From NCBI RefSeq assembly GCF_000014565.1, contig NC_008268.1, forward strand, positions 124,001 through 188,000: a stretch of 64,000 nt of DNA, given 5' to 3'. Of this stretch, positions 4,052-47,307 are shown in pieces; the first letter of the stretch is position 1, and every line of letters starts with the position of its first letter. The stretch is from Rhodococcus jostii RHA1. Its GTDB lineage: Bacteria > Actinomycetota > Actinomycetes > Mycobacteriales > Mycobacteriaceae. The notes under the pieces are model-generated. The model saw nothing but the letters and a program-made list of their open reading frames with translations. It was not told the DNA's origin and ran no database searches. The position numbers and the translations under genes were made by a program.

Positions 4052-4129
4052 TCCTTCGAATGAGTACCTGACGGACTCTCCGCGCTTACCCACGTTCACC
4101 ACATCGAAAACTGTGGTTTGCTCGAGCCT

Positions 4130-24200: not shown

Positions 24201-27200
24201 TGTCGACGCCCGGTTGCGCATCGGCGGCGGGCAGGATCCGCTGGGTCGGTTCGTTGTCGACCGTCGGGAAGACGGTGCGCAGCGTCTCGTGCCGTTCGAG
24301 TACGTCGGCCATCGCCAGCCGCAGGGCGTCCTCGTCCAGGGTTCCGGTCAGCCTGACGGCCAACGGAATGTTGTAGGCCGGTGAGGACGTGTCGAACTGG
24401 TTGAGGAACCACATCCGCTTCTGCGCCAGCGACAGCGGAATCCGGTCGGGCCGTTCGACCGGCGCGAGGGCCGGGCGGGCACCGCCGCTCACACTGTCGG
24501 CGACGCGTGCGGCCAGCGACCGGACGTCGGGGGCCTCGAACAGGGCGCGCACACCGATGTCGGTGTCGAGGGCGTCCCGCAACCGCGCCGTGACCCGGGT
24601 GGCGACCAGCGAGTTTCCACCGAGATCGAAGAAGTTGTCGTCGATGCCGATCCGTTCGATACCGAGGACATCGGCGAAGATGTCCACGATCTTGCGTTCG
24701 AGATCGTTGGTCGGCGGCTGGAACTCGGTGGTGGTGACGTGGAACTCGGGTGCGGGCAGCGCCGACCGGTCCAGTTTGCCCACCGGGGTCAACGGGATCT
24801 CGTCCAGGAACATGACGCTCGTCGGCACCATGTGCGCGGGGAGCCGGGTCGACAGGTGCGCGGTCAGTTCGGCCGGATCGACGCCGCCGGCCGTGTTGGG
24901 CAGCAGGTAGGTCACCAGCACCGTGTCCCCGGACGGGCCGGGAACACCGAGGGTCGCGGCGAAGCTGACCCCGGGGAACGTGGCGATCTCGTTGTCGATC
25001 TCGCCGAGTTCGATGCGGAAACCGCGGATCTTCACCTGGAAGTCGCTGCGGCCCACGTACTCGACGGTGTGGTCGGCGCGCCACCGGACGATGTCGCCGG
25101 TGCGGTACATCCGCTCCCCCGCCTCCCCGAACGGGTTGGCGACGAACCGCTGGCTGCTCAGTTCCGGGCGCCGGTGGTAGCCGCGGGCGAGCCCGGCACC
25201 GGTGATGTACAGCTCGCCGGGAACTCCGACGGGCACCGGCTGGAGACGTGAATCCAGCACGAGCTCACCGACGCCGCGGATCGGGCCGCCGAGGGTGATG
25301 GGGTCGCCCACCGTCATCGGGTCGCTGATGTTGGCCATCACCGTGGTCTCGGTGGGGCCGTACGCGTTGGACAGTTGCCGGCCGGGCGCCCAGCGGGTCA
25401 CCAGTTCCGGCGGGCACGCCTCGCCGCCGAACACGACGTGCTGGAATTCGTCGAGCCCCGTCGGGTCGACCGTGGACAGCGCCGCGGTGGTGACGAACGC
25501 GTGGGTGACGTGTTCGGACCTGATCAGTTCGGCCAGTTCCGCTCCGCCGTACACCGTCGGCGGTGCGATCACCATCGTCGCACCGACCCCGAAGGCCTGC
25601 AGGTACTCGAACACCGACCCGTCGAAGCTGGGCGTCGAGAAGTGCAGGGTGCGGGACGTCTGTGCCGCGGCGAAACGCTGCCGCTGGTCCTCGGCGAAGT
25701 TGTCGAGGCCCTCGTGGGTGACCACGACGCCCTTCGGCTTCCCCGTCGAACCGGAGGTGTAGACGATGTAGGCGGCGTTGTCGAGGCTTATCGGCGACCG
25801 CCGATCCGAATCGGCTACCGGCAGAGCCGGTTTCGACTGGCAGGCCTTCTCGAACTTGGGCGAGTCGAGCTGCAGCCACGGCACCGAGTCGGGCAGCGCC
25901 TTCTCGTACGCGGCCATGGTCAGTCCGATGGTGGCACCCGAATCGGTGAGCATGTGCTCGATGCGGTCCATCGGGTAGTTCGGGTCGACGGGGACGAATG
26001 CGGCGCCCGTCTTGGCCACTGCCCACACGGCGAGGACCGACTCGATCGATCGGGGAATGCCGAGCGCCACGAACGTCTCCGGGCCGGCGCCGCGGGAGAT
26101 GAGCACCCGGGCGAGCTGGTTGGAGCGTTCGTTGAGTTCCCGGTAGGAGACGTTGCGGCCCTCGAACGTCAGCGCCGTGCGGTTCGGATCCAGGGCGGCG
26201 GCGTCCTCGAAGATCTGCGGCAGCGTCCGGACGGAGAACCCGGGGCGGCCGCGCACCGGCGCGAACTCGGCGAGTTCGGCCTCGGTGAGCAGTTGCATGT
26301 GGGCGAGCGGAATCTCGGGCCGGTCCGCGAGGGCGTCGAGCACCCGCTGCAGCCGGTCCGCGATCTCGTCGACCGCGCTTTCCTCGAATACCTCGGGGAG
26401 GTACTCGAACTTGAAGTTCAGCCGCGCGTCCCCGGAGGCGACGACGGCGAGCGGGTAGTGCGCGGAGTCCTTGCCGTCGATGCCGGTGACGAACATCCCG
26501 GCGATGTCGGTCTGTTCCGTCAGCCCCGCCTCGTCCACCGGGTACGACTCGAACACGGTCAGCGTGTCGAAGGCACCGCCGCCGCCGACCGCCGACTGGA
26601 TGTCGGTCAGACCCACGTAGTGGTGATCGAGCAGTGCGGCCTGTTCGCTCTGCACACGTTCGAGCAGCTCGCCCAGCGACTCCCACGGGTCGAGGGTCAC
26701 CCGCACCGGCAGGGTGTTGATGAACAGACCCACCATCGATTCGATGCCCGCGATCTGCGGCGGCCGGCCCGAAACCGTCCCACCGAACACCACGTCGGAG
26801 CGGCCGACCAAGCCGCCCAGCACGATTCCCCACGCCGTCTGGACGACGGTGTTGAGGGTGAGCCCGCGTTCCCGGCTCAGGTCCCGCAACCGGGTGGTCT
26901 GCTCCTCCGACAGCGTGAAGGCGGTTTCCTCCGCCACGGCGGAGTGCGCTTCACCCCGCTCCAGCGGCGCGAGGAGGGTCGGCTCCTCGACACCGTCGAG
27001 CGCGGTGCGCCAGGCGTCGAGGGAGTCCGTGGTGTCGTGCCGCTTCATCCACGACAGGTAGTCGCGGTAGGAGTGGACCCGGGGCAGCAGGCTGCCGTCG
27101 GCGTCCAACGCGTACAGCGTCAGCAGGTCGCGAATGACCAGCGGAGTCGACCAGCCGTCGAGCAGGATGTGGTGGTTGGTCAGGATCAGCCGGTAGTCCT

Positions 27201-30200
27201 CCTCGGTGAGCCGGACGAGGGCAAGCCGCAGCAGCGGCGCGTTCGCCATGTCGAACTTCACCGACCGGTCCCGTGCAACGATCCGGTCGTATTCGCGGGT
27301 GGTCTCGTCCGGGTCGAGTGCCGAGAGGTCGAACTCCGACCACGGCAGTTCCACGTGCTGCTGGATGATTTGCGCGGAGGCGCCCGCGCTGTCGTGGACG
27401 AACGCGGCCCGCAGGTTGGGGTGCCGGTCCAGCAGGGCCTGCCCGGCCCGGCGGATCCGGTCCGGGTCGATGTTGCCGCGCAGTTTCAGCGCCAGCTGCA
27501 CCAGGTACGGGTCGACCGAGGCGTCCGAGAACTGGGCGTGGAACAGCAGCCCGGACTGCAGCGGTGACAGCGACCAGATGTCCGACAGCGCCGGGAACCG
27601 GGCCTCGAGCCGGTCGATCGCGTCCTGGTCGAGGGTGACCAGGTCCAGATCGGACGGGGTCACACCGCCGGCGTCGGGCCGTGCGACGTGGGTGGTCAGC
27701 GCGGTCAGCGCCTGCACCCACAGGTCGGCGAGTGCGCGGACCTCGGACGGGGTGAGGACCCCGGTCGGGAACGCCCAGGTGGCCCGCAGCCGGTTGCCGT
27801 CGGCCCCGGTGCCGGTGACGGCATTGATGTCGAGCGCCGACGCCACCGGGATGTCGGAGGCGGGGATGTCGTCGAGCTTCGTGTCCGTCACCGGAACCCA
27901 GGCGTGACCGTGGATGTCGGTGGACGTCGCGCCGCCCAGCCGGCCCAGGTAGTTGAACGTGACCTGCGGCTTCGCCAGCGCCCGCAGCTGATCCGCGCTC
28001 TCCGGGTCCAGGTAGCGGAGCATGCCGTAGCCGATGCCGTGGTCCGGAATGGCCAGCAGCTGTTCCTTGATCGCCTTGACCGCGGACCCGGTGGCCTTGC
28101 CACCGGCGAACGCGTCGTCGAGGTCGATCCCCGACAGGTCCAGACGCACCGGGAACATCGCCGTGAACCAGCCGACGGTGCGGCCCAGATCGGCGCCCGG
28201 CAGCACCTGGTCCTCGCGGCCGTGGCCTTCGAGACTGACCAGCGATTCGCGCGTGAAGTCGCCGTGGGTGCGCCGCCACTGGGCCAGCGCCAGCGCCAGC
28301 GCGGTGAGCAGTCCGTCGTTGACGCCGCCGTGGAACGCCTCGGGGACACGGGTGAGCAGGGCGTCCGTGACGTCGGCGGGCACCTCCACGGTGACCTTCT
28401 CGACGGTCCCGGCCACGTCGATCGCCGCGTCGAGCGGACGCGATCCGATGAGCGGGTCGTCGGCCTCGAGCACCCGCCGCCACAGTTCGATCTCGCCGGC
28501 GCGTTCGCGCGTCGCCTCGACGAGGCCGTGCGACCAGCGCCGCATCGACGTGCCGACCGGTTCGAGGGTCGGTTCCTGACCCGCGGAGACTTGCGCCCAC
28601 GCGGTCGCCAGGTCGGGGACGAGGATCCGCCACGACACACCGTCGACCACCAGGTGGTGGGCCACGACCAGCAGCCGCCCGCCCTGATCGCCCGCGTCGA
28701 ACCACACCATCTGCAGCATGACCCCGGCCTCGGGGTCCAGTCGTCCTGCCGCGGCGTCGAGTTCACGGGTCGCGACCTCCGCGAACCCGGAACCGACCAC
28801 CGACGCGACCTCGACGCGGTGCAGCACGTCGTCGACGTCGACCACGCCCACGGCCTGCACCTCGATCCGCCACTGCGGCTCGGCGCCGAGGAGACGGGCC
28901 CGCAGCATGTCGTGGTGATCCACGACGGCCGCGATCGTGCGCTTCAGCAGCGTCTCGTCGGCCGCGGCGGGCAGGGAGAGCAGCGCGGTCTGGGTGTAGC
29001 GGCGGAAGTCGCCGCCGCGTTCGAGCAGCCACGCGGTGATCGGGGTGACCGGCATCTCGCCGATCCCGCCACCCGGCAGTTCGTCGAGGACGACGACGTC
29101 GGCGGCACCCGCCCAGGAGGCGGCCTCGGCCAGCGCGGCAACGGTTTTGGCCTCGAACACGTCCCGCGGGGTGAGCACCACACCGGCGGCCTTCGCCCGG
29201 GCCACCAACTGGATCGACATGATGCTGTCGCCGCCGAGCGCGAAGAACGAGTCGTCCACACCCACCGATTCCAGACCGAGCACCTCGGCGAACAGACCGG
29301 CGAGGACGGTTTCCATCTCCGTGGCCGGGGCGCGGCCCGCCGACACCCGGGCCCCGAAGTCGGGTTCCGGCAGCGCGCGGCGGTCGAGTTTGCCGTTGCT
29401 CGTCAACGGCAGCGCGTCCAGCACCACGAGGGTGGCGGGCACCATGTACGAGGTGAGCTGGGTGCCCACGAATTCGAGCGCCGACGACACCTCGACGGTG
29501 GCGCCGGATTCCGGAACCACGTAGCCGATCAGCCGGTGACCGCCGTGCCCGTCGTCGCGGGTGAGGACGACGGCCTGGGCGATGCCGCGGTACCGGAGCA
29601 GCGCGGATTCGATCTCGCCGAGTTCGATGCGGAAACCGCGGATCTTCACCTGGAAGTCGCTGCGGCCCAGGTACTCGAGCTGGCCGTCGGTGTTCCAGCG
29701 CGCCAGGTCGCCCGTGCGGTACATCCGGGCCCCGGGACGGAGCGGGTCGGCCACGAACCGGCTCGAACTGAGCCCGGCCCGGCCGAGGTAGCCGCGGGTC
29801 ACCTGGTCACCGGAGACGTACATTTCCCCGATGGTGCCCGGGGGAACCGGGTGCAGGCGCCGGTCGAGGACGTGGACGTGCAGCCCGGCGATTCCGCGGC
29901 CGATCACACTGGCCGACGCGGACTCGGCGAATTCGCGGTCGAGCGCGAGGTAGCTGACGTGGACCGTCGTCTCGGTGATGCCGTACATGTTCACCAGCGT
30001 CGGGGCGGAGTCGTCGTGCCGCGAGTACCAGCGGCCGAGCTGTCCGAGGTCGAGAGCCTCACCACCGAAGATCACGTACCGCAGCGCGAGCGCCGCCGCG
30101 TTCACGTCGATCTCCGAGACGATTCGGTCGGTCTCGGCGAGCTGATAGAACGCGGTCGGGGTCTGGTTGAGGACGGTGACCTGCTCGTTCCGCAGGAGTT

Positions 30201-33200
30201 CATGGAACATTTCCGGCGACCGCGCCGTGTAGTAGTCGACGACGACGAGTCGGCCGCCGTAGAGCAGCGGACCCCACAGCTCCCACACGGAGAAGTCGAA
30301 CGCGTACGAGTGGAACATCGTCCACACGTCGTTCTCGTCGAACCCGTAGAGCGGCTGCGTGTTCGCGAACAGTGTCAGCACGTTGCGGTGCGAGACGACC
30401 ACGCCCTTGGGACGGCCCGTCGACCCGGAGGTGTAGATGACGTACGCCACCGACGAGGAGTCGAGCGGCGTCACCCGGTCGGCGTCGGTGATCGTCGCCG
30501 GCGACTGCTGCGCGAGGTCGGCGGTGGTCTCGGGGTCGTCGAGCAGGATCGCCGGGGTCTCCGAATCCGGCAGGGCGGAGACGTCTCCCGTGGTGGTGAT
30601 GACACAGTTCGGTGCGGCGTCCTCGAACACGAACGCCAGCCGGTCCGCCGGGTAGGTGATGTCGACGGGCAGGTAGCCGCCGCCGGTTTTGATCACCGCC
30701 AGCAGGGCGATGATCAGATCGCAAGTGCGTGGAAGTGCCACGGCCACCAGCGTTTCCGGCCCCACTCCCTGGGAGATGAGCAGGCGGGCCAGCCGGTTCG
30801 ACCGGGCGTCGAGCTCCGCGTACGTCAGTGCCACGTCCTCCGACGTCACGGCCGTGGCGTCGGGGAACCGGGCCACGCTCTGCGCGAACCGGTCCGCGAG
30901 GGTGTCGGTGCCCGCGTCGAATCCGGCGGTGTTCCATTCGGTCGCCATCGCCGACCGCTCGGCGGCATCGGTGATCACGATGTCCCCGACCGGGGCCAGC
31001 GGGTCGGAGGTGACGGCGCCGAGGATGCGCAGGAACCGGTCGGCGAACGTCCGGACGGTGCCGGCGTCGAACAGATCGGTGGCAAAGATGAACGACGCGG
31101 CGATACCCGACGCCACCCCGTCCGCGTCGAATCCTTCCTCGACACTGAGCTGCAGGTCGAACTTGGCGACCTCGAGATCGAAATCGACGGCGGCCGCGGT
31201 CAGTTCCGGGAGCTCGAGCCGCGGTGTCTCGTTGTTCCGGAACTCGAGCAGCGCCTGGAACAGCGGCGAGTGCGCGGTGGAGCGCTCCGGCGCGAGAACG
31301 TCGACGAGCCGCTCGAACGGCAGGTCCGAATGGTGGAACGCGGCCAGGTCGGTGGACCGGACCTGATCCATCAGGGCGCCGAAACCTGCCGCCGGGTCGA
31401 CGGCGCTCCGCAGCACCAGGGTGTTGACGAACATGCCGACCATGTCGTCGAGCGCCGCGTCACCGCGGCCGGCGATGGGTGTGCCGACCGCGATGTCCTC
31501 GGTGGACGAGAGCGCGGACAGCAGCACCGACAGGGCCGCGTGGACGGCCATGAACATGGTGGAGTTGTGCTTGCGCGCCAACGCCGCCAGCGCCCGGTGC
31601 ACGTCCGCCGGAATCGTGAAGTCGACCTGCGCACCGCGGAACGACTGCTGGACCGGCCGCGCCCGGTCGGTGGGCAACTGCAGGAGTTCGGGCAGGTCGG
31701 CCAGCTGATCGGTCCAGTACCGGAGTTGCTGGGAGATCAGCGATTCGGCGTCGCTTTCGTCGCCCAGCAGTTGGAGCTGCCACAGGGTGTAGTCGGCGTA
31801 CTGCACCGACAGCGGGTTCCACTGTGGTGCGCTTCCCGCGATGCGGGCGGCGTACGCGGTCATGACGTCCCGGGCGAGCGGGGTGAGCGAGAACCCGTCG
31901 GCGCAGATGTGGTGCACCACGATGACGAGCACGTGGTCGTCGGGGGCGAGTGCGAACAGCGCCGACCGCATCGGCACGTCGGCCGTCACGTCGAAGCCTG
32001 CCGTCGCGAGACCGGCGATGTGCTCCCTCAGTTCGTCCTCGGACACCTCGACGATCTCGAGGTTCGGCGTCCACTGACCCGGTGAGAGGACCACCTGGGT
32101 CGGTTCGCCGTCGTGAGACGGGAACACGGTCCGCAACGATTCGTGGCGGACGAAGACGTCCGTCACCGCGGCGCGCAGCGACTCCACGTCCAGATGACCG
32201 GTCAGCCGCACGGCAAGGGGGATGTTGTAGGCCGCCGACGACGTGTCGAACTGGTTGAGGAACCACATCCTCTTCTGCGCCAGGGACACCGGCACGTGCG
32301 CGGGCCGCGGCATCGGGCCGAGCGGGATCCGGACGTGGGCGCCGTCCTGCGCGGGTGCGAATGCCGTCGACTCGATGAGGCGGGCCAGTTGATGGATCGT
32401 CGGCGCCTCGAACAGGGTGCGGACGCCGATGTCGGTGTCCAGTTCCGCGGTCAGGCGTGCGGCGACACGGGTCGCGATCAGCGAGTTTCCGCCGATGTCG
32501 AAGAAGTTGTCGTCGATGCCGACACGTTCGATGCCCAGGACCGTGGTGATGACGTCGGCGATCGTGTGTTCGAGGACCGTCGACGGCGGCCGGAAGTCGT
32601 CCGACGTGGGCAGGAACTGCGGTTCGGGCAGCGCCGCCCGATCGAGCTTGCCGACGGGGGTGAGCGGGATCTCGTCCAGGATCATGATGCTCGACGGCAC
32701 CATGTGTGCGGGCAGCAGGTTCGCCGTCCACTCCTTCAGTTCCGGCGGTTCGAGTGCCGACTCGGCCTCCGGCAGCACGTAGGACACGAGCACGGTGTCG
32801 CCGGCGGGACCGGGGCGCCCGAGGGTGACGGCGAACGCCACGGACGGGTGCGCGGCGAGTGCGCTGTCGATGTCGCCGAGCTCGATGCGGAAGCCGCGGA
32901 TCTTCACCTGGAAGTCGGTGCGGCCCAGGTATTCGACCGTGTGATCGGACCGCCACCGCGCGAGGTCGCCGGTGCGGTACATCCGGTCGCCCGGCTCGCC
33001 GTAGGGGTTGGCGACGAACCGCTCGCTGGTCAGCCCGGCGCGTGCATGATAGCCGCGGGCCAGGCCCTCACCGGAGATGTAGAGCTCGCCGGCGACGCCG
33101 ACGGAGACCGGTTGCAGCCGCGAGTCGAGAATCACCTCGGAGACGCCGCGGACGGGGGCACCGATGGTGACCGTCTCCCCCACCTGCAGGTGGTCGCTGA

Positions 33201-36200
33201 GGTTGCTCATGATGGTGGTCTCGGTGGGACCGTAGCCGTTGTACATGGTGCGGCCCGGCGCCCAGCGGGTCACCAGTTCCGGCGGGACGGCCTCGCCGCC
33301 GGCGACCACGTTCTGGAACACCTCGAGCCCCTCGGGGTCCACCGAGGCCAGGGCCGCGGGGGTGACGAACCCGTGGGTGACGCCCTCGGTGCGGATCAAC
33401 TCCGCGAGTTCCTCGCCGCCGTACACGGACGGCGGCACGATCACCATGGTCGCGCCGACGGCGAACGACAGCAGGTATTCGAGGACCGAGGCGTCGAAGC
33501 TCGGTGAGGAGAAGTGCAACGCCCGCGACGTGGAATCCGTCGCATAGCGGGTCCGCTGCTCCTCGGCGAAATTGTCGAGACCGCGGTGGCTGACCACCAC
33601 GCCCTTCGGCTTGCCGGTCGAGCCGGACGTGTAGATGACGTACGCCGGGTGTGCGAACCGCAGGGGCGCGACGCGGTCGTCGTCGGTGACGGTGTCGGTG
33701 GACATGGCCCGGATGGCCGTCGCGGTCTCGGTGTCGTCCAGGGTCAGCCACCTGACCGTGTCGGGGAGCCGGCCGTGGTCGGCCTCCAGGCGGAGACCGA
33801 ACGTGCACCCGGAATCCGTGACCATGTGCTCGACCCGCTCACGCGGGTAGGTCGGATCGACCGGAACGAACGCCGCGCCGGTCTTGGTGATCGACCAGAC
33901 CGCCAGGACCGATTCGATGGACCGTGAGATACCCAGGGCCACGATGTCTTCCGGGCCGACGCCGCGGTCGATGAGCAGACGCGCGAGCTGGTTGGACCGT
34001 TCGTCGAGTTCCCGGTAGGACATCCGGCGGTCCCCGAACACGAGTGCGGTCGCGTCACCCGCCGCGGCGGCCGTCTCGGCGAACATCTGCGGCAGTGTCC
34101 GCACGGAGCGGCCGGGCAGGCCGCGGGCCGGAACCAGTTCGGCCTCCTCGACGTCGGTGAGCAGCCGCAGCTGCGCCAGTTTCATCCCGGGGTGCTCGGC
34201 GAGCGCGATCAGCGCCCGGACGATCCGGTCGCCGATCCGCTCCACGTCGGCCCGGTCGAACAGCTCCTCGACGTACTCGAGCTTAAGCTGCAGGTTCTCG
34301 TGCGCCGAGGCGATCAGCGCCAGCGGATAGTGGGCGGCGTTCGCGCTGTCGTGCACGTCGAGGACGTGCATGCCGGCGATGTCGGTCTGGTCGGTCAGCC
34401 CCTCCCGATCGACGGGATACGACTCGAACACGGTCAGCGTGTCGAAACCGGCACCGGGACCGGCCACCGACTGGATGTCCGTCAATCCGACGTAGTGGTG
34501 GTCGAGCAGCGCAGCTTGCTCGCCCTGGATGCGTTCGAGCAACTCCCCCAGCGTTTCCCGCGGGTCGAGAACCACGCGCACCGGCAGGGTGTTGATGAAC
34601 AGGCCCACCATCGACTCGATCCCCGCGATCTGCGGAGGCCGACCGGACACCGTCCCACCGAAGACCACATCGGAGCGGCCGACCAAGCCGCCCAGCACGA
34701 TTCCCCACGCGGTGCGGATCAGGGTGCTGAGGGTCAGGCCGTGCTCGCGTGCGAGCACACTCAGCTGATCGGTGCGGTCGACGTCGAGTTCGACGAGCAG
34801 TTCGCTGGACTGTGTGTCGCTCTGCACCGACGCGTCGGCAGGCGCGAGCAGCGTCGGCTCCTCCACCCCGGCGAGGGCGCGCTGCCACACACCGAGGGAG
34901 TCCTCGGTGCTGCGGTGCGACATCCACGCGAGGTAGTCGCGGTACGGGTGCACCCGCGGCAGCGCCGTGGCGTCACCCTCCGTGGCGTACAGGGTCAGGA
35001 GGTCGCGGATCAGCAGCGGCATCGACCAGCCGTCGAGCAGGATGTGGTGGTTGGTGATGATCAGGCGCTGCTCGTCCCCACCGATCTGGATCAGCATGAA
35101 CCGCAACAGCGGCGGGGTGGCCATGTCGAACCCGCGGCGCCGGTCGGCGTCGAGGAGTCGCACGATCTCGGCCTCGCGGCTCTCCGCGTCCAGCCCGGAC
35201 AGGTCGATCTCCGTCCAGGGCAGCTCCGCGGACCCGTGGATCGCCTGGACCGGGGTGCCGCCCTCGTCGTAGACGAACGACGCGCGCAGGTTCGCGTGCC
35301 GGTCGAGCAGGGCCTGCCCGGCCACCCGCATGCGGGACGGCACGGCACCGCGCAGTTCGAGAGTCACCTGCACCGTGTACGAGTCGATCGTCTGATCGGC
35401 CAGCAGTGCGTGGAACAGCAGTCCGGACTGCAGCGGCGACAGCGACCAGATGTCGGACAGCGCCGGGAAGCGCGATTCGATGCGGTCGATGGCGTCCTGG
35501 TCGAGGCTGACCAGTTCGAGGTCGGACGGTGTCACGCCGCCGGCGTCGGGGCGGGCCGCGTACGTCGTGAGCGCGGTGAGCGCCCGGACCCACAGTTCGG
35601 CGAGTTCCCGGACCTCGGCGACGGTCAGGACACCGGCCGCGTACGCCCAGGTGGCGCGCAGCTGAGGCCGGTCCTCCACCTCGGTGGTGACCGCGTTGAC
35701 GTCGATGGCCGAGGTGACCGGGGTGTCGAGGTCCTGCGCACGGTCCATGTCGACTTCACCGGTCGGCGTCCAGCCGGCGCGGGTGGCCGCCTCGGACAGG
35801 TCGGCGGCGAAGCGTCCCAGGTAGTTGAAACTGATCTGCGGCAGCGAACGGGCCGCGAGCAGCGGGGCGGTGTCGGCGTTGAGGTACCGCAGCATGCCGT
35901 AACCCATGCCGTGGTCCGGGATCGCGAGGAGTTGTTCCTTGATCGCCTTGATCGCGGAGCCGGCGGCCTTGCCGCCGTCGAACGCATCGTCGAGGTCGAT
36001 GCCCGACAGGTCGAGACGCACCGGGAACATGGCCGTGAACCAGCCGACGGTGCGGCCCAGATCGGCGCCCGGCACGACCTGGTCTTCACGGCCGTGACCC
36101 TCGAGGCTCACCAGGGTCCCGTCGACGGACCTGCCGTGCAGGGTGTGGCCGCGGGTGCGCCGCCACTGGGTGACCGCCATCGCCAGCGCGGTGAGCAGTC

Positions 36201-39200
36201 CGTCGTTCACGCTGCCGTGGATGGCCTCCGGCAGGGCCGTGAGGACGGCCTCGCTGACCTCGGCGGGCAGCTGCACCGTGACGCGGCCGACGGTCGCGTT
36301 GACGTCGATGTCGGGGTCGAGCGGGCGGCTGCCGACGAGCGGGTCCTCGCAGTCGAGGATGCGCTGCCACAGGTCCAGTTCGCCTGCCCGGCTCGCGGCC
36401 TCGTCGACCAGTCCGTGCGCCCACCGGCGCATGGACGTGCCGACCTGTTCGAGAACCGGTTCCTGGCCTGCCGAGATCTGCGCCCAGGCGGTCGCGAGGT
36501 CGGGGACGAGGATGCGCCACGACACACCGTCGACGACGAGGTGATGCGCGACGACGAGCAGGCGGCCGCCGGATTCCCCGGCATCGAACCACACCACCTG
36601 CACCATGACACCGGCCGCGGGATCGAGCCGGTCCAGCGCGGCGTCGAGTTCCGCGATCACCGTCGCCGCGAATGCCCGGGTTCCCGGGGCGGTGGACACG
36701 GGGACCCGGCGGATCAGGTCCTGGGCGTCGACCTCGCCGACCGGGCGGACGGCGAGGTGCGAGTCCTCGGCGGAGACGATCAGCTGCGCGCGCAGCATGT
36801 CGTGCCGGTCGAGTACGGCCTGGAACGTGGCGCTCAGGGGTTCGAGTTCGCGCAGGTTCGGCGGTGCGGTCAGCAGCGCCGACTGCGACATGCGGTTGAA
36901 CTCGCCGCCCCGTTCGAGCAGCCACTTCGTGATCGGGGTGGTCGGCATGTCGCCGACTCCGCCACCGGGCAGTTCGTCGAGGACGACGACGTCGGCGGCA
37001 CCCACCCACGACGCCACCGCGGCGAGACCGGCAACGGTCTTGGCCTCGAACACGTCCCGCGGGGTCAGCACCACACCCGCCGCCTTCGCGCGGGCCACCA
37101 ACTGGATCGACATGATGCTGTCGCCGCCGAGGGCGAAGAACGAGTCCTCGACACCGGCCGATTCCAGACCGAGGACCTCGGCGAACAGTCCGGCGAGCAC
37201 CTCCTCCATCTCCGACACCGGCGCGCGGCCGGTCGACACCCGGGCGCCGAAGTCGGGTTCGGGCAGCGCACGGCGATCCAGCTTGCCTGCGGGGGTGAGT
37301 GGCAACTCGTCGAGGACGATCAGCGCGGACGGCACCATGTACGGGGCGAGGAATCCGCCGACGAATTCGAGGACGGCCTCCGGGTCGAGTTCCGCGCCCG
37401 CCGTGGGGACGAGGTACCCGACGAGCCGGTTCGCTCCGGTGCTGCCCCTGTGCGCGGACACCACCGAACGGGCGACCCCCGGGTAACGCGTGAGGGCGGT
37501 CTCGATCTCGCCGAGTTCGATGCGGAAACCGCGGATCTTCACCTGGAAGTCGCTGCGGCCCAGGTACTCGAGCTGGCCGGCACCGTTCCAGCGCGCCAGG
37601 TCGCCGGTCCGGTACATGCGGGCCCCGAGACCCCCGTACGGGTTGGCGACGAAACGCTCCGCCGTCGTTCCCGCCCGGTCCTTGTAGCCGCGGGCCAGAC
37701 CGGAACCGCTGACGTACAGTTCGCCGGTCACCCCGTTGGGCACCGGGTGCAGGCGTGAATCGAGCACCATCTCCCCGGTTCCCATCGGCGGACGGCCGAT
37801 GGTGACGCCCTCACCGGGAATCATCGGTCCCGTCACGCTCGACACGACCGTCGCCTCGGTGGGGCCGTAGGCGTTGAACATCCGCCTGCCCCCGGTCACC
37901 CACTGCGCCACCAGCTCCGGCGGGCACACGTCGCCGCCGGTGGCGACGCACTCGAGCTGGTCGAGGCCCGCGGGGTCCACGGACGCCATGGCCGCCGGGG
38001 TGATGAACGCGTGCGTGACCCGGCCTTCCCGGAGCACGTCGGCGAGTTCGGTGCCGCCGATGACGGACGCCGGAGCGATCACCATGGTCGCGCCGGAGCC
38101 GACCGCGAGCAGCAGTTCCAGGATCGACGCGTCGAAGCTCGGCGACGAGAAGTGCAGCGTGCGCGACCGCGGGGTGACCCCGAAGCGGACGCGTTCGTCG
38201 GTGGCGAAGTTCGCCAGGCCGCGGTGGGTGACGACGACACCCTTCGGGGTGCCGGTGGACCCGGACGTATAGATCAGGTAGGCCGGGTTCTCCAGCGCGA
38301 GCGGGTGTGTCCGGTCGGCGTCGGTGACGACCGCGGCGGAGTGCGCGCTCACCTCGTCGTCGAATCCGGGTGCGTCGACCACGACGTAGGACGTGCAGTC
38401 CGGCAGCGTGGGACGGAACTCGGCGACGGTGAGCGCGAGCGCCGCACCGGAGTCGCTGAGCATGTGGACGATCCGGTCGGTCGGGTAGTTCGGGTCGACC
38501 GGGACGAACGCGGCACCGGTCTTGGCGACCGCCCACAGCGACAGCACCGACTCCGGCGAGCGCGCCAACGCCAGCGCCACCACCGATTCCGGGCCGATGC
38601 CACGCCCGATCAGCAAGCGGGCGAGCCGGTTCGACCGCTCGTCGAGATCGCGGTACGTCACCTCACGGCCCTCGTAGGACAGCGCGGCCGCCTTGGGGTC
38701 CACGGAGGCCGCGGCCGCGAGCAGTTCGGGCAGGGTCCGAGGTTCGGCGTCGGGTCCGTCCATCACCGGGGTGAGCGCCGCACGTTCGGACGCCACCATC
38801 AGGTCGATGTCACCGACGGCCATCCCCGGCTCGGACGTCACCGCGTCGAAGATCCGCTGCAGGTAGTCGGCGAAGCCGGCGATCGTGGACGCGTCGAACA
38901 GGCTCGACGCGTACGTGAAGGCCGCGGAGATCCCCGCCGGCTCCCCCGACGCCCCGAATTCCTCGGTGAGGGTGAGTTGCAGGTCGAAGTTGGAGATGTC
39001 GGTGGCCAGGTCGAGGCCGGTGACGGTCAACCCGGGCAGCTCCAGCCGCGGGCGCTCGTTGTTGCGGAACTCGAGCACCACCTGGAACAGCGGCGAATGC
39101 GACGTCGCGCGTTCGGGTGAGATCGCGTCGACCAGCCGCTCGAACGGCAGATCCGCGTGGTGGAAGGCGTTCAGGTCGGTGTCGCGGACCGTGGACAGCA

Positions 39201-42200
39201 GGTCGGTGAACGTGCCGGCCGGCTCGACCGGGGTGCGCAGCACCAGGGTGTTGACGAACATGCCGACCATGTCGTCCAGGGCGGCGTCGCCACGACCGGC
39301 GATGGGCGTGCCCACTGACACGTCGTCCGTGTCGCCCAGCCGGGCCAGCAGCACGGCGAGCGCCGCGTGCACGGCCATGAACACACTCGAATTGTGTTCG
39401 CGGGCAGTCGTGATCAACCGGCTGTGCACCTGCGGGTCGATGCTGAACGAGTGGATCCCGCCGCGCATCGACTGCTGCGTCGGCCGGGGGTGGTCCGTCG
39501 GCAGCGCGAGGAGTTCCGGAAGCCCGGCGAGCGTGTGCGTCCAGTAGTCGAGCTGCGCGGCCAGCAGGCTGTCGGGGTCGTCGGCGTTGCCGAGCACCCG
39601 GTGCTGCCAGAGCGCGAAGTCGGCGTACTGCACCGGCAGCGGCGTCCAGTCCGGTGCCTGTCCCCCGGTGCGGGCCGCGTAGGCGGTCATCACGTCCCGG
39701 GCGAGCGGGGCCATGGAGAAGCCGTCGGCGCTGATGTGGTGGACGACGATCACGAGCACGTGCTCGCCGGGATCGGTACGGAACAGGGCGGCGCGCACCG
39801 GCACCGACACGGTGACGTCGAACCCGGCGCCCGCCAGTCGCGAGATGTGCTCGGGCAGTTCCGCTTCCGTCGTCGCTATCGGCGACAGGTCGGGCACCAC
39901 GTCCTCGGTCGGCAGGATCACCTGGACGGGTTCGCCCTCCACCATCGGGAACCGGGTGCGCAGCGACTCGTGCCGGTCCATCACGTCGGCGACGGCGTCC
40001 TGCATCGCGTCCTCGTCGAGGTCGCCCGTCAACCGCACCGCGAGGGCGATGTTGTAGGCCGGGGAGTCGAGGTCGAACTGGTTGATGAACCACATGCGCT
40101 TCTGCGCCAGCGAGACCGGCAGTCGATCGGGGCGCGCCCCGGCCACCAGCGGCGGCCGTTCGGCGCCCTGCACGGCCTCGGATTCGATCCGGGTGGCCAG
40201 CGTCGCGACGGTCGGGGCGTCGAAGATCTCCCTGACCCCGATCCGGCTGCCCAGCGCGGCGTTCACCCGCGCGACCAGCCGGGTGGCCACCAGTGAGTTG
40301 CCGCCGAGGTCGAAGAAGCTGTCGTACACACCGATCCGGGGCGCGTCGAGCAGATCCGCGAAGATCGACGCGAGGATTTCCTCGATCGGGTTCCGCGGAG
40401 TGACGAATTCGGCGGACGGGCTGAGGAACTCCGGCTCGGGCAGGGCACCCCGGTCCAGCTTGCCGGTGGCGCCGAGCGGGAACCGGTCGAGCACGATGAT
40501 CCGGGTCGGCACCATGTAGGCGGGCAGCGCCTCCGCCGCCGCGTCGCGCACGACGGCGGTGTCGATGTCGGCGCCGGCCACGGGAATCACGTAGCCGACG
40601 AGGCTTTCGCCGGTGGCCTCGCTGCGGTGCACGGTCACGACCGCCTGCGCCACCGACGGGTGCGCCAGCACCGCCGCCTCGACCTCGCCGAGTTCGATGC
40701 GCTGACCGCGGAGCTTGACCTGGAAGTCGCGGCGGCCGATGTACTCGATGTTGCCGTCGGCACGCCAGCGGACGACGTCGCCGGTGCGGTACATCCGCTG
40801 TCCCGGCGCGCCGAACGGGTTCGCCACGAACCGGTCGGACGTCAGATCGCTGCGGCCGACGTAGCCGCGGGCCAGCTGGATGCCGGCCAGGTACAGCTCG
40901 CCGTGCACCCCGACCGGCACGGGGTGCAGCCGGGAGTCGAGGACGTACACCTGCGTGTTCCACACGGGTGCCCCGATCGGGACCGAGGCCCGGTCGCCTT
41001 CCGTGCACTCCCAGTAGGTGACGTCGACCGCCGCTTCCGTCGGGCCGTACAGGTTGTGCAGCGCCGCGGACCCGAATTCCCGGAACGCATCGGCGGTGGC
41101 GGGCGGGAGCGCCTCACCACTGCAGAACACCTGGCGGAGCGAACCGCACAGTTCCGGTTCGGCGCCCGCCGTGAACACCGCGAGCATCGACGGCACGAAG
41201 TGCATGGTGGTGACCTGGTGGTCGGCGATGATGTGGGACAGGTAGGTCGGGTCGCGGTGACCGTCCGGCGCGGCGAGGACGAGTCGAGCACCGACCTCGA
41301 GGGGCCAGAACAGTTCCCACACGGACACGTCGAACGTGACGGGCGTCTTCTGCAGCACGACGTCTGTGTGGTCCATCCGGTACGTGTCCTGCATCCACAG
41401 CAACCGGTTCACGATCGCGCGGTGGCTGACGGCGACCCCCTTGGGCCTGCCGGTCGATCCGGAGGTGTAGATCACGTAGGCGGTCGAATCGGGGTGGATC
41501 GGACCGCCCCGCTCGGCGGCGGTGATCGGGGTGCTCGGCCGCCGGGACAGGTTCAGGGTGTCGATCTCGATCACCGCCGCACCCGCCGCGCTGTCGACGC
41601 CCTCGCACCGGTCGCGGGAGGAGGTGAGAACGCATGCGGGCTCGGCACTCTCGATCACGTAGGCGATTCGCGAGGCGGGGTGGTCGGGGTCGAGCGGAAC
41701 GTACGCTGCCCCGGTCTTCTCGACCGCGTAGATCGCGATCATCAGCTCGAGTGAACGGCGCAGGGCGACGGCGACCCGGGATTCGGGTCCGACGCCGCGG
41801 GCGAGGAGTTCGCGTGCCAGCCGGTTGGCGCGGGCATCGAATTCCGCGTACAGCAGTTCCTCTTCGGCGAACACGACGGCCACGGCGTCCGGGGTCCGGG
41901 CCACCTGCGCCTCGAACAGGCTGACCAGGGTCGCCGAGTCCGGCACGGCGACATCGGTGTCGATCCACTGCTCGAGCATCCGGTGGGTCTCGTCCGCGCC
42001 GATCAGGTCGATGTCGCCGACCTTCGCATCCGAACCGGCGGTGATGGTCTCGAGCAGGGTGACGAAGCGTTCGGCCAGCGCCGTCATCGTCGGCGGGTCG
42101 AACAATTCCGACGCGTACGAGAATTGGACGTCGATCGCACCCGGGGCGCCGGATTCCTCGGTGTGCTCGGTGAGGATGACCTGCAGGTCGAACTTCGCGG

Positions 42201-45200
42201 CGCCGGTCTCGAGCGCCTCGACCTCCACGTCGAGCCCGGGCAGCTCGAGCCGCGTGTTCGCGAATCCCTGCAGCACCAGCATCACCTGGAACAGCGGTGA
42301 ATGTGCCTCGGAGCGGGTCGGCTTCAGTTCGTCGACGAGCCGCTCGTACGGCAGATCGGTGTTGCTGAACGCCGCCAGATCCACGGAGCGGGTGTGCGAG
42401 AGAATCTCGGGGAAGCTGCGATCGGGGTCGACGGTGGTGCGCAGGACGACGGTGTTGACGAACATGCCGACGACGTCGTCGAGTTGGCGCTCCCCTCGAC
42501 CGGAGACCGGGGATCCGATCGACACGTCGGATGATCCGCTCGACCGGGACAGCAGGACCGCGAGGGCGGCGTGCACCACCATGAACAGGCTGGCGTCGTT
42601 GGCGCCCGCGATCTCGAGCAGGGCGGCGTGGATGCGCGCCGGGATCGAGAAGTCGGCGGTGGCGCCGATCATCGACTGCCGGGCCGGGCGCGGCCGGTCG
42701 GTCGGCAGATCCATGACCTCGGGGGCGCCGTCGAGGGTGCGGGCCCAGAACGCCAGCTGGCGTGCGAGGAGGCTCGTCGGATCGTCGGGGGAACCGAGCA
42801 GCTCGCGCTGCCACACCGCGAAATCGGCGTACTGCACCTCGAGCGGTGCCCACTGCGGCGTGTCGCCTGCGGCGCGGGCGTGGTAGGCCACCATCACGTC
42901 CCGGGTCAGCGGTGTCATCGACAGGCCGTCGGCGGCGATGTGGTGCACCACGAACACCAGCACGTGATCGTCGGTCGCGGTGCGGTAGAGCTCCGCCCGG
43001 ATCGGCGGTTCGACGGTGACGTCGAAACCGGTTGCGGCGTCGGCGATCAGGCGGGATTCGAGCTCGTTCTCGGCCACCTCGACCGCGTCGAGGTGCGGGC
43101 TCACCTCCGCGACCGGCAGAACCACCTGAATGGGACCGTTGGGGGTGTTCGGGAACACCGTCCGCAGCGACTCGTGCCGGGTGAGGACGTCACTCACCGC
43201 GGTCCGCAGCGCCTCCACGTCGAGCGTGCCGCGCAGCCGGATACCGACGGGAATGTTGTATGCGGGCGAGGCGGTGTCGAGCTGGTTGATGAACCACATC
43301 CGCTGCTGCGCCAGCGACACCTGCACCGGGCCGGACCCGGCCCGCGGCGCGAGCACGGGGCGGGCGGAGGTGCGGGGCCCGAGAGCGTCGACGCGGGCAC
43401 TGAGCAACGCGACGCTGGGCGCCTCGAACAGATCGAGCACCCCGATCTCCGTGCTGAGGGCCGCGTTGACCCGGGACACCACGCGGGTCGCGACGAGGGA
43501 GTCGCCGCCCAGGTCGAAGAAGCTGTCGTCGACGCCGATGCGTTCGACTCCCAGAAGCGCCGCGAACACCTCCGCGATCTGCATCTCGGTCGGGGTCACC
43601 GGCGCCCGGTAGACGGTGGAGGTGGCCTCGAACTGCGGTTCCGGCAACGCCTTCCGGTCGAGTTTGCCCGCCGGGGTCAGCGGGACCTCGCGGAGCACCA
43701 TCACCCGGGCGGGCACCATGTGCGCGGGCAGCGCGGCCGCGGCGTGCTCGAGGATGTCGCCGACGACGATGTCCGTCCCGTCCTCGGGGAGCACGTACGT
43801 CACCAGCACGGTGTCGCCGGACGGTGCGGTCCGTCCGACCGTGGTCGCGAACGCCACACTCGGGTGCGAGCGGACGACGGCGTCGATCTCACCGAGTTCG
43901 ATGCGGAACCCGCGGATCTTCACCTGGAAGTCGGTGCGGCCCAGGTATTCCAGCTGTCCGGCAGCGTTCCACCGCGCCAGGTCTCCGGTGCGGTACATCC
44001 GCTCGCCGGGCGCCCCGTGGGGGTCGGCGACGAACCGTTCGGCGGTCGGGATCGACCGATTGTGGTACCCGCGTGCCACACCGTCGCCGGTGATGTACAG
44101 CTCGCCGGGGACCCCTCTCGGAACGGGGTGCAACCGCGAATCGAGCACCAGCAGACCGCAACCGCGGGACGGACGGCCGATCGTCACCGGTTCGCCGACC
44201 GTCAACGGTCCGGCCACGCTCGCGACGACGGTGGCCTCGGTCGGGCCGTATGCGTTGAACATGACCCGCCCCGGCGCCCACTGCGCCACCAGCGCAGGAG
44301 GACAGCTCTCACCACCGGTGACGACGCACCGGATGTGGTCGAGGCCGGTGGGATCGACGGATGCCAGCGCGGCGGGGGTCACGAACGCGTGCGTCACCCG
44401 TTCCCGACTCAGCAGGTCCGCGAGTTCGGTACCGCCGTACACCGTCGACGGCGCCACCACCATCGTGGCGCCGGCACCCACCGCGAGAAGCAGTTCCAGG
44501 ATGGACGCGTCGAAACTCGGTGACGAGAAGTGCAGGGTGCGGGATCCCGCGGTGACGGCGAACCGCTGCCGCTCGTCCTCGGCGAAATTGGCCAGGCCGG
44601 CGTGGGTGACGACGACACCCTTGGGTGTGCCGGTGGAACCGGACGTGTAGATCAGGTAGGCCGGGTCCGCGGTCCGCAGCGGCCGGAGGCGGTCGGCATC
44701 GGCGACCGTGCCGGCCGCGTGCTGCGCCAGGTCCCGGCCGAACGACGCGTCGTCCATCACGAGCCACGGCGTGGTCTCCGGCAGCGACGACCGGTGCGCC
44801 GCCACGGTGAGACCGACGACCGCACCGGAATCGGTGAGCATGTGTTCGATGCGATCGGCCGGATAGTTCGGGTCGACCGGGACGAACGCGGCCCCGGACT
44901 TCGCGACCGCCCAGGTGGCCAGCACCGACTCGATCGACCGCGCGATCGCCAGCGCCACAACCGAACCCGGCCCCACCCCGTGCCCGATCAGCATGCGGGC
45001 GAGACGGTCCGACTGCGCGTCGAGTTCGGGGTAGGTCAGGGTGCGTCCCTGATAGACGAGAGCGTCCCCGTCGCCGCCCGCCTCCACGGCGCGCGCGAGC
45101 AACGTGGGAAGCGTGCGGGGCTCGACCGAGGGTTCGTCGCGGACCGGCGCGAGTTCCGCGTATTCGACCTGCTCGAGGAGGTCGACGTCCCCGATCGGTG

Positions 45201-47307
45201 CGGTGGGTTCCGCCGTCACCGTCTGCAGGATCCGGACGAAGCGCGCGGCCAGGGCCTCCGCGCTGGCGCGGTCCCAGACGTCCGTCGCGAACCGCAACCG
45301 GCCGTTGATGCCGCCCGACTCCGATTCGGTGAGGGAGAACACGAGATCCAGACCCAGGGCCCGGTGTTCGCGCTGGATCGGGCTGACTGTCACGTTGCCC
45401 GACGAGTCGTGCGGATGCCCACCGTCGGTGAACTCGAGCATCACCTGGAACAGCGGTGTGTGCGAGGGATCGGATTCGGCTCCCAGGGCGGCGACGAGGT
45501 CGTCGAAGGGCAGCGCCGCATGCGTGAAGGCGGCCCGGTCGGCGTCCCGGACCCGGCTCAGGTGGTCGACGAACGACGATGCGGTGTCCACCTGCGACCG
45601 CAGGACGGTCTTGTTGAAAAATGCTCCGGCTTCCGGGTCGTCGGAGTCGGCCGCCTCGCGCCCGACGATCGGCGTTCCGATCACGACGTCGTCGGTGTCG
45701 CCCAGCCGGCCCAGCAGAACGGCCAGCGCGGCGTGCAGCGCGGTGAAGATCCCGGTGCCCGCCTCCTCGGCAAGCAGTGCCGCGCGGCGCTGCACCTCGG
45801 CGTCGACGGCGAACCCGACGACCTCGCCGGCCCCCGCCCGCTCGGCCGGGCGCGGCCGGTCCAGCGGCAGTGCCGCCACCTCCGGCAGGCCCGCCAACTC
45901 CCGCTTCCAGAACGCGAGCTGGGCCTCCCGCTCGAGGAACCGCGCACCGAGGCGGGCACTCTCGGCGTGAATGTCGGCGGTCCGCGTCTGCGGCTCGGCA
46001 GTGACGAACTCCTCGACGAGCTCCACGAACCTGCGGTGGTGGGCACGCAACTCCTCCGAGCCGTACCGGTTGGGGTTGCCGCGGAAATCGAGGAGCGTCT
46101 GCCCGTCACCGCTCTGATAGATGTTGACCAGCAGGTCGTCCACCGGGCCCGACGTCACGATGTGGTATTCACCCGTGACCGTGCCCAGCGTGAACGCCTG
46201 GTGGAACAGCATGACGTTCACCATCGGGCCGGCGAGGCCCTCCGCGGTGCCGGCGAGCCCGGCATCGCGGCGGATGTCCTCGAGGCTGCACCGCTGATGG
46301 CGCAGCGCACCCATCAATTCGAGCTGCGTTCGCTGCACGAGCTCGGCCACCGTGTCCTCCGGGCGGACGGTGATCCGCAGCGGGGCGACGTTGACGAGCA
46401 TGCCACCGGACCGCTGCAACGGCGCCGTGGTGCGCGCCGACACCGGCAGGTTGATGAGCACGTCCCGCTTGCCCGTCATCCGGGACAGATAGCAGGCGAA
46501 CCCGGCGAGCAGCACGGCCGCCGACGTGGCGCCGACCCGCTGATCCGACTCACCGAGGAAGCCCAGTGCGGTGTCGGAGATCTTCGCGCTCTCTAGCCGG
46601 CTCTTCGCCGCCGCGGGGGCGTCGTGGGTGGCGAGCGTCGATCCGTGCTCGATGCCGACAATGCGTTCGGCCCAGTACAACCGATCGTTCTCGAATCGGC
46701 TCGACGCCCGGTACTTCTGGTCCAGCTCGTAGAGGTCGCGCAGATCCAGCGCACGGTTCGGTTCCGGTTCGGTGCCCTCGACCGCCGCGGTGTACAGCGC
46801 CGCGATCCGGTTCACCATGGTCATACCGCTGTACCCGTCGAGCGCGACGTGGTGAATTCTGGTGTACCACAAGTAGTGCTGCTCACCGACCTGGAGAACG
46901 GTCATCTCGACGAGCCGGTCCCGGGTGAGCCGGAGCGGTGTCGCATAATCCTCGTCGATCCACACCTGCGCGGCACCCATCGGGTCGGACTCGCCCCGGA
47001 AGTCGAGGAAGCCGATCGACGGGTCGATGCTGAAATCGACCGCCTGGTAAGGCTCCCCGTCGACGTCCAGCAGTCGCAGGAACGGCGACTGGAACTCCTG
47101 ACCCGCCCGGACCGCCGCATCGCTCAACAGGTCCAGGTCGATCTCGCCCCGCAACTCGATGTACTGGGCGATGAACTTGGGAACCGTGGGGCTCAGTTGT
47201 TGGGCAAACCACATGCTGCGTTGCACCGAGGAGAGCGGGAAGGCCCCTTCGGGAACGGTCACATCTTCGGCGCCGTTATTCGGCTGCGGCGAATTCACAC
47301 TCGTCAT
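20521..47307 (-). CDS. Giant non-ribosomal peptide synthetase, seven modules (NRPS1)
   Basis: This 8928-residue assembly line was read as: C(EntF-like)+orphan C-lobe-A1-T, C-A2-T, C-A3-T-E, C-A4-T, C-A5-T-E, C-A6-T, C-A7-T-TE. Signature residues (235/236/239/278/299/301/322/330/331) read from the core motifs are A1 DALFVGAVV, A2 DVWHFSLVD (the known Ser code), A3 DALFAGAVV, A4 DALFVGGIM, A5 DFWNIGMVH (the known Thr code), A6 DGFFVGAVM and A7 DAFFAAGIQ. The uncalled ones look aliphatic or hydrophobic. All full C domains keep HHxxxDG, and all T domains keep GG[DN]S. E domains follow A3 and A5, and the next C domains are of D-accepting type. ATG 47307 has GGGGGA 6 nt upstream. It is a stand-alone TE-ended line; the product is unknown. 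Confidence 0.93.
21291..24459 (-). other. NRPS1 module 7: C-A-T
   Basis: A C domain (HHISADG) is followed by A7 with code DAFFAAGIQ, not matched to a known amino acid by eye. The T domain is [13 protein letters not shown]. It feeds the terminal thioesterase directly. Confidence 0.85.
24460..27664 (-). other. NRPS1 module 6: D-accepting C-A-T
   Basis: A DCL-type C domain ([24 protein letters not shown]) is followed by A6 with code DGFFVGAVM, reminiscent of isoleucine-type pockets (DGFF start) but not an exact match. The T domain is FFDLGGNSL. Confidence 0.85.
27665..32309 (-). other. NRPS1 module 5: C-A(Thr)-T-E
   Basis: A C domain (HHICADG) is followed by A5 with [12 protein letters not shown] and [12 protein letters not shown]. 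The code DFWNIGMVH is the established threonine code. The T domain (GGDSIMS) and an E domain at about 29055-27690 ([19 protein letters not shown]) predict D-Thr or D-allo-Thr at position 5. Confidence 0.88.
32310..35539 (-). other. NRPS1 module 4: D-accepting C-A-T
   Basis: The C domain opens [15 protein letters not shown] and carries HHILLDGWS, the pattern of D-accepting (DCL) condensation domains that follow epimerases. A4 has code DALFVGGIM (hydrophobic-type, uncalled). The T domain is FFDIGGNSL. Confidence 0.86.
35540..40129 (-). other. NRPS1 module 3: C-A-T-E
   Basis: A C domain (HHISADG), A3 (code DALFAGAVV, hydrophobic-type, not assigned) and an E-type T domain ([11 protein letters not shown]) are followed by an epimerisation domain at about 36945-35560. 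The E domain shows [28 protein letters not shown] and FNYLGRF, so residue 3 should be D-configured. Confidence 0.86.
40130..43329 (-). other. NRPS1 module 2: C-A(Ser)-T
   Basis: An L-accepting-type C domain (HHIAADG) is followed by an A domain with core [10 protein letters not shown] and [12 protein letters not shown]. The pocket code DVWHFSLVD equals the published serine code of EntF, so L-Ser is predicted with good confidence. The T domain carries FFDLGGNSL. No E domain. Confidence 0.88.
43330..47307 (-). other. NRPS1 module 1: EntF-like C, C-lobe, A1, T
   Basis: Residues about 18-450 form a complete condensation domain with HHVALDG at residue 152. Its C-lobe segments [16 protein letters not shown] and [14 protein letters not shown] recall the EntF C domain, which accepts an aryl group from a free carrier protein. 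Because this C domain begins the polypeptide, the first residue is probably N-capped. An orphan C-lobe (about residues 455-710) precedes A1 (about 735-1245, code DALFVGAVV, hydrophobic-type, uncalled) and a T domain with GGDSL. Confidence 0.85.
45180..45945 (-). other. Orphan C-terminal lobe of a condensation domain
   Basis: Residues about 455-710 of NRPS1 read as the second half only of a canonical C domain: [61 protein letters not shown] and [11 protein letters not shown]. Only about 30 residues separate it from the preceding complete C domain, so its N-lobe and HHxxxDG are missing. It is not catalytic on its own. Confidence 0.8.

Follow-up and report, generated by a model that had tools for sequence, protein, structure and literature searches.

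Orphan condensation C-lobe between a complete starter domain and the first adenylation domain in NRPSs of Rhodococcus jostii RHA1 and its relatives

Why should a peptide synthetase that begins with a complete condensation domain carry half of another one in front of its first adenylation domain? The question is raised by NRPS1, a giant non-ribosomal peptide synthetase (NRPS) encoded in the window analysed here, a 64,000-nt stretch of Rhodococcus jostii RHA1 (NC_008268.1, 124,001 to 188,000). The features concerned are listed below in window coordinates, with amino acid (aa) numbers of NRPS1.

20521..47307, minus strand: NRPS1 gene, a single open frame of 8928 aa with an ATG start
45997..47250, minus strand: complete starter condensation (Cs) domain, aa 20-437 (Pfam PF00668, PDB relatives, model elements)
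46834..46854, minus strand: HHVALDG, the catalytic motif of Cs, aa 152-158
45967..45996, minus strand: junction linker between Cs and orphan lobe, aa 438-447 (junction comparison by eye and model)
45181..45966, minus strand: orphan C-lobe, aa 448-709, with neither N-lobe nor HHxxxDG (Pfam, motif scan, own HMM, model)
45613..45666, minus strand: floor loop as mapped onto the orphan lobe, aa 548-565, unshortened in NRPS1 (reference residue numbers from the accessible text of PMC8097023)
45358..45423, minus strand: latch as mapped onto the orphan lobe, about aa 629-650, likewise unshortened in NRPS1 (reference numbering from the same text, PMC8097023)
45121..45180, minus strand: C-A linker from orphan lobe to A1, aa 710-729 (Pfam and model)
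43918..45120, minus strand: core of the first adenylation domain (A1), aa 730-1130 (Pfam PF00501 at aa 739-1082, and model)
43393..43578, minus strand: carrier domain T1, aa 1244-1305 (Pfam PF00550)

Module 1 of NRPS1 has the order Cs, orphan C-lobe, A1 and T1. The Cs domain, which is the first of the assembly line, has a complete two-lobe condensation (C) fold and an intact HHxxxDG motif, and its Pfam Condensation match covers aa 21-441 (positions 3-439 of 456 of the profile). The second Condensation match, scored on the cut-out aa 440-742, corresponds to a C-lobe only (positions 191-455 of 456), and the match of the orphan lobe to our own C-domain HMM begins at position 200. The AMP-binding match of A1 begins at aa 739. 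No HHxxxDG-like motif was found between HHVALDG and A1 of NRPS1, the next one being at aa 1455, in module 2. The second-half motif regions of the orphan lobe are those named C5-C7. Pfam, the motif scan and an AlphaFold2 model (mean pLDDT 84.7, pTM 0.64) bear out the description given in the earlier note on this DNA, namely a complete C domain with HHVALDG followed by half a C domain, and the boundaries proposed there for the latter, 45180-45945, are close to those found, about 45181-45966. The linker between the two, put at ~30 residues in that note, is shorter: the last Cs helix spans residues 417-436 and the first helix of the orphan lobe residues 448-470 in the model, which leaves ~11 residues. 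A cryptic N-lobe hidden in the linker is thereby ruled out, and the model contains none.

The solved sequences closest to Cs are the 7c1k/7c1p group (RzmA-Cs), CDA-C1 (4jn3), ObiF1 (6n8e) and EntF (5ja1). By sequence, Cs groups with known Cs domains and not with LCL or DCL domains, in agreement with the EntF-like starter type proposed earlier. The best PDB sequence matches of the orphan lobe are DhbF (5u89), Txo2/Txo1 and the PCP-C didomain 7kvw. When junctions were compared by eye, the linker was found to resemble the start of the C-A linker of lobe-less starters, followed by the first helix of a canonical C-lobe; lobe-bearing starters continue past the junction as the canonical helix behind a YADYxxWQ motif.

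A search of the own genome (G000, 9.70 Mb, 4 contigs) with aa 1-742 returned five NRPSs that match nearly the whole query, NRPS1 itself at 100% identity and four others at 48-53%. We then mapped 19 NRPS frames of this genome (ORFs ≥700 aa) using HMMs built from the window's own C and A domains. Three of them, whose initial C match is partial or divergent, are set apart from the 16 full-length starter-C NRPSs, five of which harbour Cs followed by an orphan lobe, with lobe matches starting at HMM positions 197-201. No internal C domain halved in the same manner was seen in the 19 frames. Across all loci mapped, the orphan lobe starts at C-domain HMM position 197-203 wherever there is a profile match and the frame is intact, and it follows a complete Cs in NRPS1 as well as in all mapped members with intact frames.

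Matches at E≤1e-150 were found in 26 of 28 genomes of the genus (own included), each with one or more rows that extend to residue 726 or further. The region is not a mis-assembly or a single-strain oddity, since 96%-identical copies are present in both R. wratislaviensis and R. opacus ATCC 51881. In one group of NRPSs, with lengths near 8900 aa, the match to the single sequence ends near residue 545, but two members examined by profile do span the junction. The named relatives make up 47 loci (42 from Rhodococcus, Prescottella or Rhodococcoides, 4 from Nocardia and 1 from Allorhizobium). Those 4 Nocardia loci are devoid of the orphan lobe, and the full order is present in the Nocardia proteins P0021, P0022, P0024, P0029, P0051 and P0073. 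With a junction profile built from 10 sequences, 110 of 301 genomes of the family, belonging to 12 of 31 genera, gave matches at E≤1e-70 (103 at E≤1e-90), and the family matches listed, down to about 7e-144, span the profile from position 1-2 to 425 or beyond. At E≤1e-60, the order sample gave matches in 11 of 298 genomes, none of them from another family; five of these (own included) span the whole junction profile and six are C-lobe matches only. At E≤1e-66, the class sample yielded 2 of 394 genomes (the own one and one of the family) and the phylum sample 1 of 296 (the own one). Thus, the junction was not found outside the family in the order, class and phylum samples, a search to which independent fusions of Cs and half-C from other C types are invisible.

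We also collected 304 matches from a protein database, 120 of which were listed and mapped for domain order. Where the organism is named among these matches listed, the half-C order occurs in Rhodococcus, Prescottella, Rhodococcoides, Nocardia, a Nocardiaceae MAG and an 'Actinobacteria bacterium' MAG. In a plasmid collection, relatives were found on Rhodococcus plasmids, and Streptomyces rows cover the query piecewise over longer stretches. Two proteins, P0043 of Rhodococcus gannanensis (703 aa) and P0045 of Rhodococcus sp. MTM3W5.2 (726 aa), stop right behind the orphan lobe with arginine-rich tails, which suggests a frame change in the gene or the assembly at that point. The strong recurrence of the C plus half-C order in other rhodococcal NRPSs, foreseen as a check in the earlier note, shows that this is no local oddity; it is an old architecture common to many NRPSs of the genus and family.

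The distances between Cs and A1 fall into two groups, 50-83 aa and 258-331 aa, with none in between (102 starters, repeats included; a 45-aa value in the list comes from a wrongly picked ORF, L097, so that the true low group starts at 50). The frames of L104 are broken. At three loci, L055, L089 and L095, the orphan lobe is diverged and the C-domain profile detects its first part only, with the full Cs-to-A1 distance kept. At L093, the lobe gives no profile match at all, yet the distance corresponds to a full lobe.

Beside NRPS1 lies a second giant NRPS, with an open frame of 10391 aa (window 48901-63999, minus strand, and on to G000:C1:204076), whose starter C has no orphan lobe; both types of start thus adjoin in NRPS1 and its neighbour. 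Elsewhere in the genome (L120-L122, G000:C1:5394445-5440421), two giant NRPS frames of 9003 and 6278 aa, both starting with Cs and an orphan lobe, are arranged head to tail, some 130 bases apart, and may have arisen by duplication. Lastly, an open frame of 459 aa that lacks any Pfam match at E≤1e-5 (window 3608-4987, minus strand) is found between genes for a flavin amine oxidase-like and a disulphide oxidoreductase-like protein.

Where did the lobe come from? A tree of 114 C-lobes was built from 39 orphan lobes (80, repeats of the same locus included, reduced at 80% identity), 59 canonical lobes (48 from the own genome and 11 from relatives) and the own C-lobes of 16 starter domains. A long branch with an SH-aLRT of 100 separates the latter from the canonical and orphan lobes together, so that the orphan lobe derives from an elongation-type C domain and not from a starter. 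Duplication of the C-lobe of Cs itself is ruled out as its source by this tree. The profile and the tree thus support the proposal that the second half belongs to a canonical C domain, whose C-lobe is attached to Cs at the lobe hinge. Four orphan rows of this tree have an odd amino acid make-up. In the free search, 4 of the 39 orphan lobes fall among the canonical ones and the other 35 do not form one clade. When the 39 were held as one clade, the likelihood was 30.5 log units better than in the free search (p-AU 0.73), and a single origin is therefore not rejected by these sequences.

We also built a tree of starter domains. Among 54 of them (one a wrong row, H_L097), the lobe-bearing ones form a clade supported at 100/100, with a single lobe-less intruder, L113. 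H_L097 is a canonical C domain from a wrong ORF, with a branch of 9.36, and was replaced. The corrected tree requires two changes for lobe presence, and monophyly of the lobe-bearing Cs domains is not rejected (p-AU 0.189). L113 (P0028, G000:C1:511044-515108) is a single-module NRPS with the Pfam order C-A-T-TE, the layout of EntF, and has no orphan lobe. It might stem from the lineage that donated the fused Cs, or else have lost its lobe.

The fusion point is near constant and located at the lobe hinge, the region of the C domain in which XUC engineering cuts, as described in the accessible text of PMC7804268 and PMC11546977. Judging from the sequences and trees, a whole Cs domain is fused in frame to the C-lobe of a canonical elongation C domain, probably through a single event in a common ancestor of Rhodococcus and relatives. 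The earlier note envisaged replacement of an N-lobe by recombination at the hinge, which these data do not distinguish from the fusion of Cs onto an NRPS that started with a C-lobe remnant. The latter history differs in origin and not in function from the former, and is thus separate from the functional alternatives weighed below: a remnant would have stood at the N-terminus first and Cs would have been added later, without replacement of an N-lobe. N-terminal *C-A modules do exist elsewhere (PMC7253712, in its accessible text), and the junction retains, from the Cs partner, what appears to be the beginning of a C-A linker. Nevertheless, none of the 19 own-genome frames mapped begins with a bare canonical C-lobe, and among the 120 database matches listed, the proteins that do so look like fragments. 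We consider this history a serious contender, with the odds somewhat against it.

The orphan lobe evolves in a distinctive manner. It has the lowest identity of the seven regions compared in all 11 orthologue pairs; for L066, L067, L069, L070 and L071, its identity is 34-45% vs 59-79% for the other regions. The dN/dS analysis was restricted to the six closer pairs, because dS is near saturation beyond L065. The ratios of the lobe are 0.21, 0.16, 0.17, 0.20, 0.21 and 0.26, the highest of the seven regions in each pair, with 0.00-0.18 for the six neighbouring regions. These substitution patterns indicate that the lobe is relaxed and yet under purifying selection.

The gaps are not spread evenly. 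Comparison of the 39 orphan with the 59 canonical lobes revealed 49% gaps at columns 90-106 and 41% at columns 170-191 of the former, and 0% at both places in the latter. These 39 columns, 15% of the total, contain 680 of the 1061 gap cells (64%). A third, weaker cluster (24% gaps in orphan vs 8% in canonical lobes) coincides with a hairpin at columns 204-213, while columns 214-270 have 47% identity to the canonical consensus in orphan lobes vs 54% in canonical ones. Canonical lobes have an advantage in these gap counts, because 48 of the 59 went into the C-lobe HMM used; the 11 that did not are also gap-free there. In the accessible text of PMC8097023, the floor loop and the bridge/latch of fuscachelin C3 are given as A2843-L2858 and R2923-T2944. 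We transferred these elements via the 7kvw alignment to the second C domain of NRPS1, tying the numbering by E2702 of HHxxxDE, and they land on columns 90-105 and about 170-191. What has been lost is thus the pair of arms that extend across to the N-lobe; such arms are described likewise in what is accessible of PMC9547227 and PMC11186497.

With thresholds of 5 of 17 floor columns and 8 of 22 latch columns, set after the gap profile was known, the floor loop is shortened in 33 of the 39 representative orphan lobes and the latch shortened or deleted in 23, as opposed to none of the 59 canonical lobes in either case. Both are shortened in 22 representatives and neither in five, one of which is the orphan lobe of NRPS1. 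The 33 and 23 losses are not independent events, since parsimony on the Cs tree counts at least 5 changes of floor-loop state and at least 7 of latch state.

The earlier note also proposed that the lobe keeps a good C-A interface. Such an interface is a prediction of structural models, in which the lobe docks on A1 as in a normal C-A platform. The lobe and A1 of the NRPS1 model superpose on the C-lobe and A domain of EntF (5ja2) at 3.0 Å over 632 residues. Among the 50 structure matches listed for this model, only EntF 5ja2 is rigid over lobe and A domain; other C-A chains gave rmsd values near 20 Å, with the Cs domain within the aligned range, and the floor loop and latch of NRPS1 are modelled with low confidence in parts. 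The model of the eroded L089 lobe with its A1 gave values from 2.8 to 5.6 Å over about 600-646 residues, the lowest with LgrA 9be3 (2.8 Å/616), followed by Txo2 (3.1 Å/630), McyB (3.4 Å/621) and SrfA-C (3.6 Å/630), and up to 5.6 Å with other C-A entries. Because AlphaFold2 has seen C-A structures, this docking may be remembered rather than encoded, and the pTM of the NRPS1 model reaches only 0.64.

The anatomy, spread, ancestry, relaxed purifying regime and loss of N-lobe-facing parts are supported by sequence; the rest of what follows we infer. Our preferred reading, to which we give a probability of about 0.6, is that the orphan lobe is half of a catalytic domain, retired from catalysis and retained as a scaffold of A1, and perhaps as a specificity gate. 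Cs would acylate the first amino acid, the task of a Cs domain being the transfer of a fatty-acyl or aryl group to the first aminoacyl-T, and would be a separate head on a short linker ahead of the platform. The orphan lobe, with neither active site nor acceptor tunnel, would according to the models stay docked on A1 as the C-half of the C-A platform, where it would stabilize A1, keep T1 in register and possibly influence which substrate A1 selects. Freed of its N-lobe partner, it would have lost the two partner-reaching arms in most lineages and kept the rest. As Cs stands in front of the platform, T1 would have to extend beyond the orphan lobe before it could hand over its aminoacyl group. 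A precedent is the C-terminal subdomain of McyB, which when co-expressed alone restricts its A domain, as told in the accessible text of PMC11546977. More broadly, we would give even odds to the orphan lobe being a distinct, natural, non-catalytic type of NRPS domain, an A-domain scaffold or gate that arose a single time from the C-lobe of a condensation domain and has been preserved in many synthetases, probably of lipopeptides, in Rhodococcus and its relatives.

Some observations count against a scaffold. The lobe is the fastest-evolving region, which fits slow decay too; L113, whose starter C lies near or in the same clade, has no lobe; and the NRPS1 copy keeps both loops at full length. 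The lobe might thus be a functionless leftover of one fusion that is slowly decaying, and its lowest identity in 11 of 11 pairs, the loss of the loops in most representatives and the existence of a related Cs domain without a lobe would all suit neutrality. Nevertheless, dN/dS is well under 1 in close pairs, none of the 102 starters has a Cs-to-A1 distance between 83 and 258 aa, and the gaps gather in two N-lobe-facing segments while columns 214-270 stay at 47% vs 54%. We regard a neutral relic as unlikely.

A new docking function appears more improbable still. The lobe would recruit an acyl carrier protein, an acyl ligase or a tailoring enzyme, as X domains recruit P450s according to the accessible text of PMC8097023. 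Its long retention behind the starter domain and its divergence between paralogous NRPSs could be explained in this manner, but inspection of the lobe alignments by eye disclosed no new conserved motif. Hardly credible, finally, is a second condensation site formed by pairing of the lobe with an N-lobe, either in trans or by a swap in cis with Cs. The second-half motif regions are still recognizable in the NRPS1 copy, as such a composite would lead one to expect. However, Cs already has a conserved C-lobe of its own, most representatives have a shortened floor loop and latch, the elements by which an N-lobe and a C-lobe are closed into a pair, and there is no free N-lobe in the 19 own-genome NRPS frames mapped (ORFs ≥700 aa).

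The retired-half reading can be set beside several known systems. Like the Cs of NRPS1, RzmA-Cs, CDA-C1, the C domain of EntF and surfactin initiation are N-terminal with HHxxxDG. In EntF and other solved C-A modules, the C domain's own C-lobe forms the platform, whereas in NRPS1 another lobe stands there. There is a likeness, too, to the *C of ThdA, from thermoactinoamide biosynthesis, a truncated C domain that is likewise placed immediately ahead of the first A domain; according to the accessible text of PMC7253712, the authors consider it probably inactive and suggest an effect on A selectivity. Unlike the orphan lobe, which has a complete Cs before it, *C stands at the protein N-terminus with no catalytic C ahead. 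XUC engineering likewise uses a breakpoint between the lobes and leaves the acceptor lobe with the A domain, but in the descriptions accessible in PMC7804268 and PMC11546977 it rebuilds one complete hybrid C domain, whereas NRPS1 gains a whole extra C domain and its acceptor lobe remains single. The McyB C-terminal subdomain (CCTD) similarly acts on an A domain as a C-lobe alone, in an engineered construct and not as a natural free lobe (PMC11546977, accessible text). For fungi, an incomplete C domain between two A domains of an NRPS is reported in the accessible part of PMC4041764.

Most rhodococcal NRPSs begin with C-starter domains, and 69 of 79 rhodococcal NRPS cluster families have hallmarks of lipopeptides, according to the accessible text of PMC5550956, which makes no mention of a second half domain. 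The Cs plus half-C order is likewise absent from the accessible texts of PMC8739492, PMC10212144, PMC10587159, PMC8097286, PMC7486941 and PMC4035055. More generally, a C-lobe remnant behind a complete starter C was not found in the accessible parts of the open-access literature on truncated, partial or tandem C domains or on these genera. The earlier suggestion that no described module has this order thus stands as far as that literature goes, with the qualification that C-lobe remnants before A domains are already known. What did not turn up there is a remnant behind a complete starter C that is fixed across many NRPSs in several genera.

These lobes bear on a dispute of NRPS engineering, namely whether the C-lobe is part of the C domain or of the A domain. 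Here is a natural case in which, in many gene families, a C-lobe is kept beside an A domain without its catalytic partner, and in most of them its N-lobe-facing arms are trimmed. Orphan lobes are directly testable natural scaffolds for chimeric lipo-initiation modules, and they are a warning to annotators, as they may be counted as second C domains or missed. If our reading is true, the repeated loss of floor loop and latch in Rhodococcus and its relatives would be a natural experiment that parts the role of the C-lobe in the C-A platform from its role in catalysis.
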